NCBI RefSeq assembly: GCF_014892515.1
Contig: NZ_JADBGR010000019.1
Coordinates: 1-64,000, forward strand
Source of the DNA: Myceligenerans pegani
Lineage (GTDB): Bacteria; Actinomycetota; Actinomycetes; Actinomycetales; Cellulomonadaceae
DNA length: 64,000 nucleotides
Direction of reading: 5' to 3'
Shown here: positions 39,054 through 46,125 of the stretch, in pieces
Layout of the letters: every line of letters begins with the position of its first letter
Numbering within the stretch: the first letter of the stretch is position 1
Notes under the pieces: generated by a model
Database searches by the model: none
What the model was told of the DNA's origin: nothing
What the model saw: only the letters and a program-made list of their open reading frames with translations
Made by a program: the position numbers and the translations under genes

Positions 39054-40532
39054 TCAGACCTCATCGGGCAGGCAGACGGCGACGTCCGCCAGGTAGCCGG
39101 CGGCCGCCGTGGCGAGCAGCCCGGCCAGGCCGGACCCCTCGGGCACCGGCCGCGGGTCGTCGACCACGACCCAGAGCCCGTCGACGACGTCGTACTGTGC
39201 CTGCGGCCCGTCGGTGACCAGCGTACGCACCGCCGCGACGAGCCGCTCGACCTCCTCGCCGGCGGTTCCGACACCGACCGAGGCGCGCACGGCCCCGGCG
39301 TCGAACCCGAGACGTCCGAGCAGCGGGTGCGCGCAGAACCGCCCGTCGCGCACGCCGATCCCGTGCTCGGCCGACAGGTAGGCCGCGACGAGACCGGGGT
39401 CGTACCCCGCCACCGTGAAGGTCACCACCCCGACCGGGTCGACGGCGTCGTCCCACACCCGCACCACCGACACCCGGTCGATCGACTCCAGGCCGCTCAC
39501 GAGGCGACGGCGCAGCGCGCCCTCGTGCGCACGAACCAGGTCGGGGTCCAGGGCGGCGAGCGCCTCGCACGCGGCGGCCAGCGCGACGGCCCCGATCACG
39601 TTCGGTGAACCCGCCTCGTGCCGCGCGGGCCCGTCGTGCCAGTCGGTCTCGCCGGTACGCACCCGCCGGACGGCACCGCCGCCGGCGAGGTAGGGAGTGC
39701 CCGCGTCGAGCCAGTCACGGCGGCCGATCAGGGCGCCGGCGCCGTAGGGCGCGTAGGTCTTGTGCCCGGAGAAGGCGAGGTAGTCGACGCCGCTGTCGGC
39801 GAGCGAGATCCGGCGGTGCGGGACGAGCTGGGCGCCGTCGAGCACGATGCGTGCGCCGTGCTCGTGGGCCGCACCGACCAGGTCCGCGAGGGGGAGCGAC
39901 TCGCCCGTCACGTTGGACGCGCCCGTGACGGCGAGCAGCACGTACGGCCTGCCGGTGCCGGCGCCGTCGGCGAGCTCGTCACGGACCTGCGCGAGCGTGT
40001 CCGCGACGGTCGTGCCGCCGGTGAGGACGGTGGCGTCGGTGAGCCGCTGCCAGGGCAGGAGGTTGGCGTGGTGCTCGACGTCGAGCACCAGCACCCGGCC
40101 GGGTGCCCCCGTGGCCGGATCGGCGGGGACGCATCCCGCCAGCAGGTTGAGCGAGTCGGTGGTGTTGCGCGTGATGAGAGTGAGGTCCTCTGCGCGCGCA
40201 CCGACGAAGTCCCCGATGGCGCGGCGGGACGCCTCGTACAGGGCGGTGGAGACCTGGGAGAGGTAGCCCGCGCCCCGGTGCACGCTGGCGTACAGCGGCA
40301 GGGTCTCGGCGACGCGCTCCGCGACGGACTCCAGCGCGGGAGCGGAGGCCGCGACGTCGAGGTTGGAGTAGGTGACCTGCCGCCCGTCGACGAGCGGGAC
40401 GAGCGTGTCGTGCCCCACGACCGGCAGGAGCGGCGCGGTCGGGTCCGGCGCGGCCCGCTCGGCGGGCGCGGGAGCGGTCGACGTACGGGCCGAGCCGCCG
40501 GGCGTGGTCGTGGTGTCGGTGGCTGCCGTCAT
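39054..40532 (-). CDS. Class V aminotransferase-fold PLP enzyme (cysteine desulfurase-like), SAM-IV controlled
   Basis: 492 aa. An Ala/Thr/Pro-rich start of ~45 residues leads to the class V core: TYSNLDVAASAPALESV, LITRNTTDSLNLL, VLDVEHHANLLPW, VLDGAQLVPHR, and the PLP lysine in SGHKTYAPYGAG. The C-terminal part (RDGRFCAHPLLGR) resembles cysteine desulfurases of the SufS/Csd branch; the Cys here may be the persulfide carrier. The last ~60 residues are unusual. ATG at 40532 with GGAGGG just upstream. The SAM-IV riboswitch in its leader ties it to sulfur amino-acid metabolism. Confidence 0.86.
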   Translation of the reverse strand: MTAATDTTTTPGGSARTSTAPAPAERAAPDPTAPLLPVVGHDTLVPLVDGRQVTYSNLDVAASAPALESVAERVAETLPLYASVHRGAGYLSQVSTALYEASRRAIGDFVGARAEDLTLITRNTTDSLNLLAGCVPADPATGAPGRVLVLDVEHHANLLPWQRLTDATVLTGGTTVADTLAQVRDELADGAGTGRPYVLLAVTGASNVTGESLPLADLVGAAHEHGARIVLDGAQLVPHRRISLADSGVDYLAFSGHKTYAPYGAGALIGRRDWLDAGTPYLAGGGAVRRVRTGETDWHDGPARHEAGSPNVIGAVALAAACEALAALDPDLVRAHEGALRRRLVSGLESIDRVSVVRVWDDAVDPVGVVTFTVAGYDPGLVAAYLSAEHGIGVRDGRFCAHPLLGRLGFDAGAVRASVGVGTAGEEVERLVAAVRTLVTDGPQAQYDVVDGLWVVVDDPRPVPEGSGLAGLLATAAAGYLADVAVCLPDEV

Positions 40533-40563
40533 GGCGCCCTCCAGCGAGTCCTGGGGGAGTGCG

Positions 40564-40680
40564 TCCCCGCGCTTGCCACGAACGGTCTCGAACGCGGCCT
40601 GGTCGTCACCCGGGGCACCCCACCGCGAGAGGAGGGTTGCCGGCCAGCAAGCCGGGGCTTGTCGCTGGCACTCATGACCT
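40564..40680 (-). promoter_or_regulatory. SAM-IV riboswitch in the leader of the aminotransferase gene
   Basis: Read on the minus strand, it opens GGTCATGAGTGCCAGCG at 40679, continues CCGGCTTGCTGGCCGGCAAC, CCTCC, GCGGTGGGGTGCCCCGGG, GACGACCAGG, and ends with GGCAAGCGCGGG near 40566. This is the order and near-exact sequence of the actinobacterial SAM-IV class, including its 3' pseudoknot strand. It ends about 30 bases before the start codon, so SAM probably blocks translation of the downstream gene. Confidence 0.93.
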
Positions 40681-40778
40681 GGCGTCATCCTGCGATCCCC
40701 GCACGGACGCGTCAACGAGCGTCCACATTCTGGTCTCACTGTGTGATCGGCCCGCGCCGGTGACGTACGATCGCGTCG

Positions 40779-40886
40779 ACCATCCCGAGCGGGCGAGTGA
40801 CGTGGCACGTCGACCCCGCAGCAACCCGCGGGTCTCGCGCACACGCGACGCCTCCCGGACCAGGGTGCTAACGCCACGACCGATGG
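40779..40886 (+). promoter_or_regulatory. S-box (SAM-I type) riboswitch in the leader of the rhodanese-metZ operon
   Basis: P1 is CCATC (40779-40783) with GATGG (40882-40886). P2 carries GCGGGCGAGTGAC and GACCCCGCAGCAACC, and the J3/4-P4 part reads AGGGTGCTAACGCC. These match the order of S-box elements in divergent actinobacterial form (GCAGCAACC in place of the usual GGCAACC). The P1 3' strand directly abuts and shares a G with the ribosome site GGAGGAG, so ligand-stabilised P1 should limit ribosome access. Confidence 0.82.
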
Positions 40887-40896
40887 GAGGAGTGCC

Positions 40897-41376
40897 ATGA
40901 GCAACCCCGAAGCCGACACCCCCGCGAACGCGGGCCCCCCGCTGGACGCACGCCCGGCCGCGGGCTACGCCGGCGACATCACCCCGCAGCAGGCGTGGGA
41001 CCTCCTGGCCACGGATCCGGACGCCACCCTCGTGGACGTCCGCACCGAGGGCGAGTGGCGCACCATCGGCGTGCCGGACGTCAGTTCGCTCGACAAGCAG
41101 GCCGTGTTCGCGGAGTGGGTGCACGCCGACGGCCGCCCCAACCCGGCGTTCCTGGAGGAGCTGAAGGCCGGCGTCGGCGCCGCCGGTGGACCGGTCGTGT
41201 TCCTCTGTCGCTCCGGCCAGCGGTCGATCGGCGCCGCGCGGCTGGCCACCAGCGCCGGCATCGCGCCGTCGTACAACGTGCTGGAGGGGTTCGAAGGGCC
41301 GGCGGGGCCCGACGGTGTCCGCAACCACAGCGGCTGGAAGGTCCGCGACCTGCCGTGGGCGGAGGCCGACGCGTGA
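40897..41376 (+). CDS. Rhodanese-like sulfurtransferase domain protein
   Basis: 159 aa single rhodanese domain. The active-site loop is CRSGQRS (Cys near residue 108), preceded by ATLVDVRTEGEWRTIGVP. The end, NVLEGFEGPAGPDG then HSGWKVRDLPW, is typical of rhodaneses that precede O-succinylhomoserine sulfhydrylase. It probably supplies or relays persulfide sulfur. Its GTGA overlap with metZ couples translation. The whole operon lies behind an S-box riboswitch. Confidence 0.93.
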   Translation: MSNPEADTPANAGPPLDARPAAGYAGDITPQQAWDLLATDPDATLVDVRTEGEWRTIGVPDVSSLDKQAVFAEWVHADGRPNPAFLEELKAGVGAAGGPVVFLCRSGQRSIGAARLATSAGIAPSYNVLEGFEGPAGPDGVRNHSGWKVRDLPWAEADA

Positions 41377-42635
41377 CGACGACCGGCGCCTTCCCGCCCG
41401 ACGCCGTCCCCGGCGGTTCCGGGCGCAAGCCGCTGCCCGCGGGTGTCCGGCCGCGCACCCTCGCCGTGCGTGCCGGGCACGCCCGCACGGAGTTCCAGGA
41501 GACCGGCGAGGCCGTCTTCCTCACCCAGGGGTACGTGTACGACTCCGCCGCGGACGCCGAGGCGGCGTTCTCCGGCGACCTGGACCGGTTCGTCTACTCG
41601 CGCTACGGCAACCCGACCGTGCACACCTTCGAGGAGCGCCTGCGCGTCCTGGAGGGCGCGGAAGCCTGCTACGCCACGGCTACCGGGATGTCGGCGGTGT
41701 TCACGGCGCTGGCCGCGCTGGTGCGGTCCGGGTCCCGGATCGTCGCGGCCCGGGCGCTGTTCGGGTCGAGCGTGGTGATCTTCGACGAGATCCTCGCCAA
41801 GTGGGGAGTGCGCACCGACTACGTGGACGGGCACGTGCTCTCCCAGTGGGAGGAGGCCCTCGCGGAGCCGGCGGACGTCGTCTTCTTCGAGACGCCGTCG
41901 AACCCGATGCAGGACATCGTCGACGTGCGGGCCGTGGTGGAGCTGGCGCACCGCGCGGGCGCGACCGTGGTGCTCGACAACGTGTTCGCGACGCCGCTCC
42001 TGCAACGGCCGCTGGAGCTCGGCGCCGACGTCGTCGTCTACTCCGCGACCAAGCACATCGACGGGCAGGGACGCGTGCTCGGCGGCGCGATCCTCGGGAC
42101 CACCGAGTTCGTCACGGGTCCGGTGCAGACGCTGATCCGGAACACCGGGCCGTCCTTGTCGCCGTTCAACGCGTGGACACTGCTCAAGGGGCTGGAGACA
42201 CTGCCGGTGCGGATCACCGCACAGAACGCGGCGGCGCTGGAGGTCGCGCGGGTGCTCGAGGGGTTCGACGGCGTCACCGGGGTGCGCTACCCGTTCCTCG
42301 ACTCACACCCCCAGGCGGAGCTCGCGCGGTCGCAGATGTCGGGCGGCGGGACCGTGGTGACGTTCGACCTCGACGTCCCGCCCGGGACGGACGCCGACGG
42401 CGCCAAGAAGCGGACGTTCGCGTTCCTGGACGCGCTGCGGATCGTCGACATCTCGAACAACCTCGGCGACGCGAAGTCCCTGATCACCCACCCCGCCACG
42501 ACGACCCACCGCAAGCTGGGCGCCGACGGCCGCGCCAGGGTGGGCATCAACGAGACCACGGTGCGGCTGTCCGTGGGGCTCGAGGACGTCCAGGACATCG
42601 TCGAGGACGTGGAGCAGGCGCTGGCCACGTCGTAG
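41373..42635 (+). CDS. metZ: O-succinylhomoserine sulfhydrylase
   Basis: 420 aa Cys/Met-metabolism PLP enzyme. The PLP lysine is in YSATKHIDGQGRVLGG; other family blocks are RYGNPTVHTFEERL, FFETPSNPMQDIVDV and SLGAAKSLITHP-like DAKSLITHPATTTH. Forms homocysteine from activated homoserine and sulfide, one step before methionine. The closest pattern is MetZ, but MetY/MetB-type substrates cannot be excluded by eye. Starts at GTG 41373, overlapping the rhodanese stop. Confidence 0.92.
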   Translation: MTTTGAFPPDAVPGGSGRKPLPAGVRPRTLAVRAGHARTEFQETGEAVFLTQGYVYDSAADAEAAFSGDLDRFVYSRYGNPTVHTFEERLRVLEGAEACYATATGMSAVFTALAALVRSGSRIVAARALFGSSVVIFDEILAKWGVRTDYVDGHVLSQWEEALAEPADVVFFETPSNPMQDIVDVRAVVELAHRAGATVVLDNVFATPLLQRPLELGADVVVYSATKHIDGQGRVLGGAILGTTEFVTGPVQTLIRNTGPSLSPFNAWTLLKGLETLPVRITAQNAAALEVARVLEGFDGVTGVRYPFLDSHPQAELARSQMSGGGTVVTFDLDVPPGTDADGAKKRTFAFLDALRIVDISNNLGDAKSLITHPATTTHRKLGADGRARVGINETTVRLSVGLEDVQDIVEDVEQALATS

Positions 42636-42822: not shown

Positions 42823-45800
42823 TTGCGTACCCGATCAGTCACCGTAGCGGCCGTCGCCGCCGCGCTCGTCGCGAGCAGCTGCATGCTCCCGAGCGCGGCC
42901 GCGCAGCCAGGCAGTTCATCCGACGGCGCCGCCGCCGAAAGCGCCCCGGCCCTGGCCGAGTCCGTCACGGTCCCGCTCCTGACGGGCGATCGCGTGACCG
43001 TCACGACGGCCCCGGACGGAAGCCGGACGGCCGCCGTTCTCCGCGCCGAAGGACGCGAGGACGTCCCGTTCCTCCGGCGCGGCCACGGCGAGCACCTGTA
43101 CGTCATCCCGGCCGATGTCGCCGAGTTCGTCGGCGAGACGCTCGACGAGCGGTTGTTCGACGTCGCCGCGCTGGCCGACGCCGGATTCGGCGGTCGGCCG
43201 ACACTGCCGGTCATCGTGCAGCGGACCGGACGGCCGAGCGACGTCTCGACCCTCGCGGCCCGCGGCGACTGGACGTCGGCCGGCATCACGCCGGAGCGCA
43301 CCCTGGAGTCCGTCCGTGCCGTGTCCGACGACGTCGACGCCGCGGCGGGCGCGAAACTGATCGACGCCCTGCGCACGCAGGCCGGCGAGGCCACGACGCG
43401 CGCCGCGCAGGAAGCGCCCGCGATCGAGCGCGTCTGGCTCGACGCGCCGGTGCGGGCGCTCGACGCCGACTCGGCACCCCAGATCGGCGCACCCCAGGCC
43501 TGGGAGGCAGGCTTCACCGGCGACGGGGTCACGGTCGCCATCCTGGACACCGGCATCGACGCGACCCACCCCGACCTGGACGAGCTCGTGGTGGCGCAGC
43601 AGGACTTCTCCGACACCGGGTCCGTCGTCGACGGGGACGGGCACGGCAGCCACGTCGCCTCCATCGTGGCCGGGTCCGGCGACGCGTCCGACGGCGTGAA
43701 CTCCGGCATGGCTCCCGATGCCGACATCATGGTCGGCAAGGTGCTGGACGACTACGGGTACGGTGACGAGTCGTCGATCATCGACGGCATGGAATGGGCC
43801 GCCTCGCAGGGCGCGGACATCATCAACATGTCCCTCGGCGCGTCCGAGTACACCGACGGCACGGACCCCATGGCGCTGGCCGTCGACCAGCTGACCGCGG
43901 AGCACGACGCCCTGTTCGTCGTCGCGGCCGGCAACGACGGCATGGACGAATCGATCGCGACGCCCGGCTCGGCGTCGTCGGCCCTCACGGTCGGCGCGGT
44001 CGACGACGACGACGTGGTCACCGACTTCTCGAGCCGCGGGCCACGAACCGACGGTGCCATCAAACCCGACGTCGTCGCTCCCGGCGAGGAGATCGTCGCC
44101 GCGCGTGCGGCGGGGACGCAGCTCGGCAGCCCCGTCGGGGAGCACTACACGGCCCTGAGCGGAACCTCGATGGCGACGCCGCACGTCGCGGGTGCGGCGG
44201 CGGTCGTCCTGGAGGCTCGGCCCCACCTGGGCGCGGCCGAACTGAAGGCCGTCCTGATGGGGTCGGCGGACCCGACCGGTGCGTCCGTCTTCGAGGAGGG
44301 TGCGGGGCGGGTCTTCCTGCCCGCCGCGATCGAGCAGCCGGTGCTGGCCGATCCGGCGTCGGTCTCGCTCGGCGCCTTCGAGCACCCGCACGAGGGCACG
44401 GCGTCGGACACGGTCACGTACCGGAACACCGGCGACCAGGACGTCGTCCTCGGCGTGGATCTCGCCGTGACCGGCCCTGACGGCGAGGCCGCCGAGGGCG
44501 CGTCCGTCTCGGACGACCGGGTGACCGTTCCGGCGAACGGCACCGCCGAGGTCGCCGTGACCGTGGACCTTGCGCTCGGGCCCATCGGCCGGTACTCCGG
44601 CGTGGTCACGGCGACCGGCCCGGACGGCGCGACGGTGCGGACACCCGTGGGCTGGGAGAAGGAGCCCGAGCTGTTCGACCTGGAGGTGGAGTTCGTCGGA
44701 CGGGACGGAATGCCGTTCGAGGACGGAATGACGGACCTCGCCGTCATGAACGTCGACGACGCCGGGCAGTTCCTGTTCTCCGACCTCACCGAGGACGCGA
44801 CGCACACCCTGCGCGTGCCCGCGGGCCACTACTCGGTCGCCGCAAGCATGCTCAACGACACGTTCACGCAGGTCACGGACGCGTTCGCGCCCGAGGTGAC
44901 CGTCACCGCCGACACGACCGTGACGCTTGACGCGCGGGAGGCCCTGCCGGTGTCGATCGCCACGCCGCGCAGGGCGTCGGTGAGGGAGCTCGGCCTGGAC
45001 GAGCAGCGGACCGACCCGAACGGGGGCGGCATCTCGACGGGGGTGAGCGTCGGGGGCGCCGACGCCTTCGTCACGCCGACCGAGCCGGTGTCGATCGGAG
45101 AGTTCGACCACGTCACCTCGGCGCACCTGGACCAGCCGACCTCGGATGGGACGGGACCGTCGTACACCTACGACCTGGTGTTCCAGCAATCCCCGGTGAC
45201 CACGGGGACATTCACCGCGCGCCGCGGGGACCTGGCGGCCGTGAGGACGACGCACGCGGAACCGGCACGGGACGTCGCGATCTTGACGGGCCGCGGTGCC
45301 CTGCCGGAAGGTCGGTTCTTCGGTTCCGCGACGTTGGTCCCCGTGGAGCCGGGTACCCGGACCGAGTACGTGAGCGCGCGGAACGTGAACTGGTTCCAGG
45401 GCACGCTCTACGGCACCCCCGCCGGGGAGGAGATCCTCGGCGGCTACGACTCGCCGCTGACCGCGTACGAGCCCGGTTCAACCGTCGAGGAGACGATCGG
45501 CGGGGCGCCCCGCACTCCGCAGGCCGACGCCGCGCAGCTGGGAGACCTGCTCGCGATCTTCCCGAACGGCTGGTCGGACTCGGCCGGAAACACGTTCACG
45601 GGCTGGGGCGAGGACGACGAACGACTCACCGTCTGGCAGGACGGCGAGGTCGTCGTGGACGACGCACCCGGATGGGCCGAGCTGACGATGCCGCCCGGCG
45701 GCGCGGGCTACCGGGTCGCCTACCACGGGATCCCGGCGTCCGACCAGTGGTACACCGCGAAGCGCGTCACGGGCGAGTGGACGTTCCACGCCGAACCGGT

Positions 45801-46125
45801 CGGCGAGGACGAGGTCGTGCCGCGGGAACTGCCCGATGTCCGGTACGACGTCGCGGGGATCGATCTGCGAGGCGCGGCACCGCGGCGCACCAAGGTCGGG
45901 GTCGAGGTGACCGGTACCGAGGGTGACGCCGACGTACGCCTGTGGTGGTCCGCGAACGACGGCAGGGACTGGAAGGAGGCCAGGACCAGGAACGGCGTGG
46001 CCATGGTGAAGGTCCCGAAGGGCACCTCGGCGGTGTCGCTCCGTGCCGAGGTGACGGACGCGGCGGGGAACAGTCTGCGGGAGACCGTGATCGAGGCGTA
46101 TACCGTGAAGAAGTGGCCGTGGTGA
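42823..46125 (+). CDS. Secreted S8 family serine peptidase (subtilase)
   Basis: 1100 aa. Signal peptide (VAAVAAALVASSC) then an N-terminal propeptide region to ~residue 215. The subtilisin triad is Asp242 (ILDTGIDATHPDL), His274 (DGHGSHVASIVAG) and Ser449 (SGTSMATPHVAGAA), and the oxyanion Asn is in AAGNDG. From ~500 onward are beta-rich Fn3/CARDB-like segments and no recognised enzyme. It lacks the PA insert between His and Ser. The TTG start is eight bases past AAGGGA. The leader is unusually structured, and a hairpin terminator follows the stop. Confidence 0.92.
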   Translation: MRTRSVTVAAVAAALVASSCMLPSAAAQPGSSSDGAAAESAPALAESVTVPLLTGDRVTVTTAPDGSRTAAVLRAEGREDVPFLRRGHGEHLYVIPADVAEFVGETLDERLFDVAALADAGFGGRPTLPVIVQRTGRPSDVSTLAARGDWTSAGITPERTLESVRAVSDDVDAAAGAKLIDALRTQAGEATTRAAQEAPAIERVWLDAPVRALDADSAPQIGAPQAWEAGFTGDGVTVAILDTGIDATHPDLDELVVAQQDFSDTGSVVDGDGHGSHVASIVAGSGDASDGVNSGMAPDADIMVGKVLDDYGYGDESSIIDGMEWAASQGADIINMSLGASEYTDGTDPMALAVDQLTAEHDALFVVAAGNDGMDESIATPGSASSALTVGAVDDDDVVTDFSSRGPRTDGAIKPDVVAPGEEIVAARAAGTQLGSPVGEHYTALSGTSMATPHVAGAAAVVLEARPHLGAAELKAVLMGSADPTGASVFEEGAGRVFLPAAIEQPVLADPASVSLGAFEHPHEGTASDTVTYRNTGDQDVVLGVDLAVTGPDGEAAEGASVSDDRVTVPANGTAEVAVTVDLALGPIGRYSGVVTATGPDGATVRTPVGWEKEPELFDLEVEFVGRDGMPFEDGMTDLAVMNVDDAGQFLFSDLTEDATHTLRVPAGHYSVAASMLNDTFTQVTDAFAPEVTVTADTTVTLDAREALPVSIATPRRASVRELGLDEQRTDPNGGGISTGVSVGGADAFVTPTEPVSIGEFDHVTSAHLDQPTSDGTGPSYTYDLVFQQSPVTTGTFTARRGDLAAVRTTHAEPARDVAILTGRGALPEGRFFGSATLVPVEPGTRTEYVSARNVNWFQGTLYGTPAGEEILGGYDSPLTAYEPGSTVEETIGGAPRTPQADAAQLGDLLAIFPNGWSDSAGNTFTGWGEDDERLTVWQDGEVVVDDAPGWAELTMPPGGAGYRVAYHGIPASDQWYTAKRVTGEWTFHAEPVGEDEVVPRELPDVRYDVAGIDLRGAAPRRTKVGVEVTGTEGDADVRLWWSANDGRDWKEARTRNGVAMVKVPKGTSAVSLRAEVTDAAGNSLRETVIEAYTVKKWPW

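Follow-up and report, generated by a model that had tools for sequence, protein, structure and literature searches.

Divergent SAM-IV and P4-less SAM-I riboswitch elements between sulfur and methionine genes of Myceligenerans pegani

The SAM-I (S-box), SAM-IV and SAM-I/IV riboswitches are the closest described relatives of the elements analysed here. SAM-IV has no P4 helix and binds SAM; it shares its ligand-binding core with SAM-I, whereas the peripheries of the two differ (PMC6890682). SAM-I/IV has neither the P2 internal loop nor PK-1, and P4 is present (PMC2864571, PMC6890682). The conserved or ligand-contacting residues of SAM-I are given as A6, U7, G11, A12, C44, A45, C47, U57, G58, and G27/G28 with C65/C66 (PMC3764141); moreover, SAM-I riboswitches that work by building the ribosome binding site into the 3' side of P1 have been described (PMC2258182). 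In the transcriptome of Streptomyces clavuligerus, an aminotransferase class V-fold gene has a SAM-IV leader, with premature transcripts there (PMC8269248), and the link between SAM-IV and class-V genes is therefore not new. Mixed tandem SAM riboswitches are also known, including SAM-II/SAM-V and SAM-II with SAM-I/IV (PMC9481103).

In the soil actinobacterium Myceligenerans pegani, two RNA elements of SAM-sensor classes are located back to back between sulfur and methionine gene units. The window is a stretch of 64,000 nucleotides of its genome, and the features of the locus are listed in Table 1. The class-V protein has the SufS-type lysine and cysteine motifs (SGHKTYAPYG and GRFCAHP), and its PLP lysine and catalytic cysteine were aligned with those of cysteine desulfurases in the PDB (E down to 2.8e-55). 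It scored 271.8 bits against TIGR01979 (sufS), below the cutoff of 475.1, so that it is homologous to SufS and not filed as such. The closest relative of the rhodanese-domain protein is found in M. indicum (89% identical), and the GTG start of metZ overlaps the rhodanese stop codon (GTGA). Judged from their functions, the desulfurase and the rhodanese would feed sulfur to MetZ. Directly downstream of metZ is an ORF for a subtilisin-like secreted protease (1100 aa, TTG start, 42823-46125). The intergenic region is very probably a divergent SAM-controlled promoter region, in which two translational OFF switches would lower sulfur mobilisation and homocysteine synthesis.

Table 1. Features of the locus, with positions in the window
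Feature	Position	Strand	Details
Class-V PLP enzyme, cysteine-desulfurase-like	39054-40532	minus	PF00266, E 6.7e-77
Intergenic region	40533-40896		364 nt; class-V PLP gene (minus) on one side, rhodanese-metZ operon (plus) on the other
SAM-IV expression platform (predicted)	40533-40563	minus	anti-SD CUCCCCCAG 40559-40551; SD GGAGGG 40542-40537; ATG 40532
SAM-IV aptamer, full length	40564-40679	minus	P1, P2, P3, P5, 3' PK-2 strand GCGCGG; RF00634
Putative promoter of the SAM-IV unit	40687-40715	minus	TTGACG 40715-40710, 17 nt, CAGGAT 40692-40687
Operator-like palindrome	40733-40748	.	GTCTCACTGTGTGATC; family consensus about GTCTCRCATnnTGRGAC
Putative -10 of the rhodanese-metZ promoter	40766-40771	plus	TACGAT
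SAM-I aptamer without P4	40777-40889	plus	P1 40780-40784/40882-40886; kink-turn P2, P3, loop 2-J3/1 pseudoknot; RF00162
SD of the rhodanese gene	40886-40890	plus	GGAGG; first base common with the P1 3' strand
Rhodanese-domain protein	40897-41376	plus	PF00581, E 8.9e-8; active-site loop CRSGQRS
metZ, O-succinylhomoserine sulfhydrylase	41373-42635	plus	NF005870 719.7 bits (cutoff 618); TIGR01325 578.7 (cutoff 510)

Both strands were searched with the Rfam models. The minus-strand element matched SAM-IV (RF00634) with 117.7 bits (gathering score 38; model positions 1-116; E 3.9e-21 in the window search), and the copy was aligned with 38 relatives. P5 and the 3' strand of PK-2 follow P1, P4 is absent, and model positions 80-116 are matched; the PK-2 3' strand GCAAGCGCGG is also conserved in the relatives. 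The plus-strand element scored 39.4 bits against RF00162 (E 4.6e-7 genome-wide). This is less than the gathering score of 44.4, and the shortfall is probably due to the missing helix P4; most of the listed SAM-I orthologues exceed the cutoff. A dedicated model made from these SAM-I sequences gave 95.9 bits on the window copy, which is itself part of the model. The genome contains three SAM-I elements and one strong SAM-IV in total, the window copies included. A weak SAM-IV-like match elsewhere in the genome (G000:C94:129161-129294, 25.2 bits) is below the cutoff.

The SAM-I alignment was composed of the window copy and 38 orthologous copies. P1, P2, P3 and the L2-J3 pseudoknot are all present, and the complete structure (P1, P2a, P2b, P3 and the L2-J3/1 pseudoknot) is paired in 98.9% of the cells in these 39 sequences; the pairing falls to 28-57% when the structure is slid along the alignment. 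Nine pairs are changed on both sides, compared with 2.8 in shuffles and at most 1 in the slid controls. This covariation is located in P2, P3 and the pseudoknot, whereas P1 is invariant and gives no covariation evidence. For example, C-G, G-C and U-A all occur at the P2 pair 17-39, and both U-A and A-U at the pair 22-31; at the pseudoknot pair 26-109, 16 sequences have G-C, 12 have C-G and 8 have a mispair. The tandem G.A of the kink-turn in P2 can be recognized at the sequence level (G19 A20 and G36 A37, invariant and matching the G.A positions of PMC3764141), and the columns that match the SAM-I residues of PMC3764141 are invariant in all 39 sequences. Plain minimum-energy folding of the SAM-I leader, with a method that cannot form the pseudoknot, gives a structure other than the aptamer, and its stability does not exceed that of shuffles (z -0.43).

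On this comparative evidence, the plus-strand SAM-I element is real. A chance or artefactual origin of the sub-threshold match was rejected by the covariation and by the recurrence of the element across the family. An assignment to SAM-I/IV or another Rfam class was also rejected; no other class matched, RF01725 did not match at E 10 in a search that keeps only the top-scoring one among overlapping clan matches, and the P2 internal loop is present. The sequence-only reading had named a SAM-IV riboswitch on the minus strand and an S-box-type riboswitch on the plus strand, and had let each stand or fall with its covariance-model threshold. SAM-IV passes, and SAM-I taken literally does not; that failure is overruled by the S-box pairs holding in 39 sequences and by the same element occupying the same place across the family. 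The motifs of both aptamers had been read correctly and their ends placed to within 3 nt, and the estimated distance of about 100 bases in a 364-base spacer agrees with the measured 97 nt between the aptamers and 364 nt between the genes. The description of two unrelated folds does not hold; SAM-I and SAM-IV belong to one Rfam clan (CL00012) and have a common binding core (PMC6890682). The lack of P4 in SAM-I and a conserved operator-like palindrome in the spacer are additional to what that reading reported.

The window copy of SAM-I has 4 nt at the position of P4, where the RF00162 model has about 20, and there is no room for P4 in any of 41 SAM-I orthologues. To avoid circularity, 31 SAM-I copies were also examined that the Rfam model, which includes P4, had found in genomes of the order; none of them has P4, and at most 30 nt follow GGUGC. 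The plus-strand element is therefore called a SAM-I variant with three helices, not a standard member. The absence of P4, together with the score of 39.4 against 44.4 bits, would be expected of a degenerate S-box relic or of an element with a changed ligand (e.g. SAH) instead of a working SAM sensor. That explanation seems improbable, given the strong compensatory change in the fold and the binding-site positions that are invariant in 39 sequences. Moreover, SAM-IV has no P4 and yet binds SAM with the same core, which suggests that the loss of P4 need not abolish binding. The P4-less type also precedes metF, metE, metZ and sulfonate/ABC-transport genes in several families, where RF00162 scores are above the cutoff, and the same type is found before metF and metE in M. 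pegani itself. The two further P4-less copies of this genome are about 1.1 kb apart on one strand (G000:C92:62681-63908). In another genome (G383), a c-di-AMP riboswitch (62.3 bits; L218:3085-3293) and a P4-less SAM-I lie within 1 kb of each other.

The divergent pair was then compared among related genomes. Strict sequence patterns missed most real aptamer copies, and covariance models were used instead; the pairs were counted by hand from the coordinates of the SAM-IV search, the SAM-I search and the dedicated model. R1 matches of about 35-55 bits in other families were left out of the SAM-I counts, because scores of this size could also come from SAM-IV copies. SAM-IV and SAM-I on opposite strands and pointing apart were found within 3.4 kb of each other in 45 of 61 genomes of the family, and within 200 bp in 36 of them. 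Among 40 pair loci that were fetched (two from one genome of another family), the class-V, rhodanese and metZ genes are all in place in 38; one locus is on a cut contig and one has other genes. This conserved pairing in 45 of the 61 genomes makes joint control of the two units plausible, and the coordinate control proposed in the sequence-only reading likely. Two other divergent pairs were observed: SAM-IV/SAM-I serving a luciferase-like monooxygenase and an ABC transporter (genome G430, L219:2282-2662), and two SAM-I copies at an ABC transporter and a flavin reductase (genome G438, L215:7983-8278).

The genes and their riboswitches also occur apart. In 9 of the 45 paired genomes, the distance between the riboswitches is 0.3-3.4 kb, and an APH-family phosphotransferase gene is inserted between them in several genera. 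In two genomes of another family (f13), the class-V gene keeps SAM-IV and rhodanese-metZ keeps SAM-I at a distance of 4-9 kb. In a third family (f37, probably Streptomyces), all 7 sampled genomes have SAM-IV 0.1-0.4 kb ahead of the class-V homologue, with no metZ partner near this unit in the data seen. The persistence of the gene-riboswitch links when the partners are apart indicates that these links predate the adjacency or are more firmly maintained than it, and the f37 genomes bear out the earlier proposal of a connection between the class-V enzyme and SAM sensing. One f37 genome has a second SAM-IV (74.6 bits; G168:C2:85169-85314) away from the class-V gene. The rhodanese-metZ genes are preceded by a same-strand SAM-IV, not SAM-I, in Nocardia (five loci) and Antrihabitans (one); no SAM riboswitch was found at the sampled rhodanese-metZ loci of Mycobacterium and Rhodococcus.

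These separations might mean that the adjacency is a by-product of two independently regulated neighbours, and that neither the closeness nor the mix of classes carries a function. We consider this rather probable, as the widely spaced pairs with the inserted gene, the f13 and f37 arrangements and the SAM-IV of rhodanese-metZ in Nocardia are all consistent with it; the spacing within 200 bp in 36 of 61 genomes and the positionally conserved palindrome between the promoters argue for more than proximity. It is compatible with SAM control of both units and denies only an added meaning of the class mix.

The spacer between the two aptamers contains putative promoters and an operator-like palindrome. 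The motif GTCAA, the reverse of a TTGAC -35, was found in 25 of 27 spacers, compared with 1.4 in shuffles, and in most cases its distance to the 5' end of SAM-IV is 31-33 nt. A promoter consensus scan of the region found nothing, and the putative promoter of the SAM-IV unit thus rests on this conservation. In 18 of the 27 spacers, the SAM-I match is preceded by a TA-type hexamer at a distance of about 11 nt. The half-site RTCTCR is present in 23 of 27, compared with 2.3 in shuffles, and as a rule it follows the -35 of the SAM-IV unit 19-20 nt further out. The exact pattern RTCTCRCATnnTGRGM has 21 sites in the 61 genomes, whereas the reversed pattern has none. This spacer accounts for four of the 21; others adjoin metK, metY (O-acetylhomoserine sulfhydrylase), metZ, and genes for a MetQ-like lipoprotein and an alkanesulfonate-monooxygenase-like protein. 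Further sites are without a clear methionine link (acetolactate synthase, an MFS transporter and others). The window palindrome is diverged from the family consensus and has the same form in four Myceligenerans genomes. These data suggest that the palindrome is the site of a methionine transcription factor and marks a candidate methionine regulon.

In the proposed mechanism, the transcript of each promoter would almost at once enter a leader with a SAM-clan riboswitch. On the plus side, SAM would close P1 of the three-helix SAM-I, the 3' strand of which touches the SD; translation of the rhodanese would be blocked, and that of metZ as well through the overlapping GTGA. In nearly all relatives GATGGAGG or GATGGGAGG is found at the P1/SD position. 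The plain leader fold also contains a stem that would mask the SD (CCTCCC/GGGAGG), which was set aside; it is not conserved in the sister species. On the minus side, the PK-2 strand GCGCGGGG, the CUCCCC stretch and the SD allow two mutually exclusive pairings. SAM would fix the SAM-IV 3' strand GCGCGG in PK-2 and free CUCCCC to pair with the SD of the desulfurase-like gene; without SAM, CUCCCC would pair back to GCGGGG and the gene would be on. When the PK-2 strand is free, the mean accessibility of this SD in 30 relatives is 0.38, and it falls to 0.18 when the strand is fixed; the corresponding values are 0.40 and 0.35 in a shuffled-linker control, which ignores the relatedness among the sequences. 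The effect was not seen in several relatives, and the SAM-IV platform is variable among them. At high SAM, sulfur mobilisation and homocysteine synthesis would both fall, and the palindrome between the promoters, probably the site of a DNA-binding protein of the methionine regulon, would add transcriptional control.

The premature transcripts at the class-V SAM-IV leader of S. clavuligerus (PMC8269248) suggest that the control may be partly transcriptional. A mainly transcriptional control, through the palindrome's factor or through Rho-dependent or intrinsic termination with the riboswitches acting by termination and not by SD masking, would also fit the palindromes that adjoin metK, metY, metZ and the metQ-like gene. 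It is nevertheless unlikely: no intrinsic terminator was found in the region, the SD is directly at P1 of SAM-I, and the SAM-IV side has the PK-2/anti-SD/SD relation.

It is a tentative proposal, with somewhat less than an even chance, that the SAM-I elements without P4 form an actinobacterial subclass of their own in the SAM clan, in which a three-helix junction would bind SAM in the absence of P4 and control translation directly via P1, and that the region joins SAM-I and SAM-IV with the predicted operator of a methionine regulator that has sites at metK, metY, metZ and a metQ-like gene. A natural P4-less SAM-I is a test of the purpose of the fourth helix, and probably represents a structural stage between SAM-I and SAM-IV. 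Orthologous rhodanese-metZ genes, which one family has under SAM-I and another under SAM-IV, are a natural riboswitch-class-swap experiment; moreover, the spacer motif predicts a methionine regulon, and the Rfam SAM threshold can miss GC-rich actinobacterial copies. The open-access literature searched contained no prior description of P4-less S-boxes or divergent SAM pairs, and priority is not claimed. As far as this literature goes, four things are new, each being a variant of something known: the SAM-I type without P4, the divergent arrangement of this type with SAM-IV, the exchange of riboswitch classes, and the candidate regulon marked by the palindrome.

Compared with the described systems, the window SAM-IV shows no difference in the aptamer. 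It matches all positions of RF00634, it is actinobacterial and precedes a sulfur gene, like the class-V case in S. clavuligerus (PMC8269248), and only the divergent partner differs. The window SAM-I has P1, the kink-turn P2, P3, the L2-J3 pseudoknot, the binding-site residues and the ribosome binding site at the 3' side of P1 (PMC2258182) in common with RF00162; however, it is a three-helix junction without P4, whereas the standard S-box has four helices. SAM-I/IV (RF01725), an intermediate between SAM-I and SAM-IV, is of the same clan and core as the window SAM-I and is its reverse in the periphery; the window element has the P2 internal loop and PK-1 and no P4. The mixed tandems (PMC9481103) also bring two SAM classes to one locus, but in series in one mRNA. 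The surveys PMC9481103 and PMC12452182 treat contiguous or tandem cases; whereas the pair in M. pegani is on opposite strands and belongs to two mRNAs.
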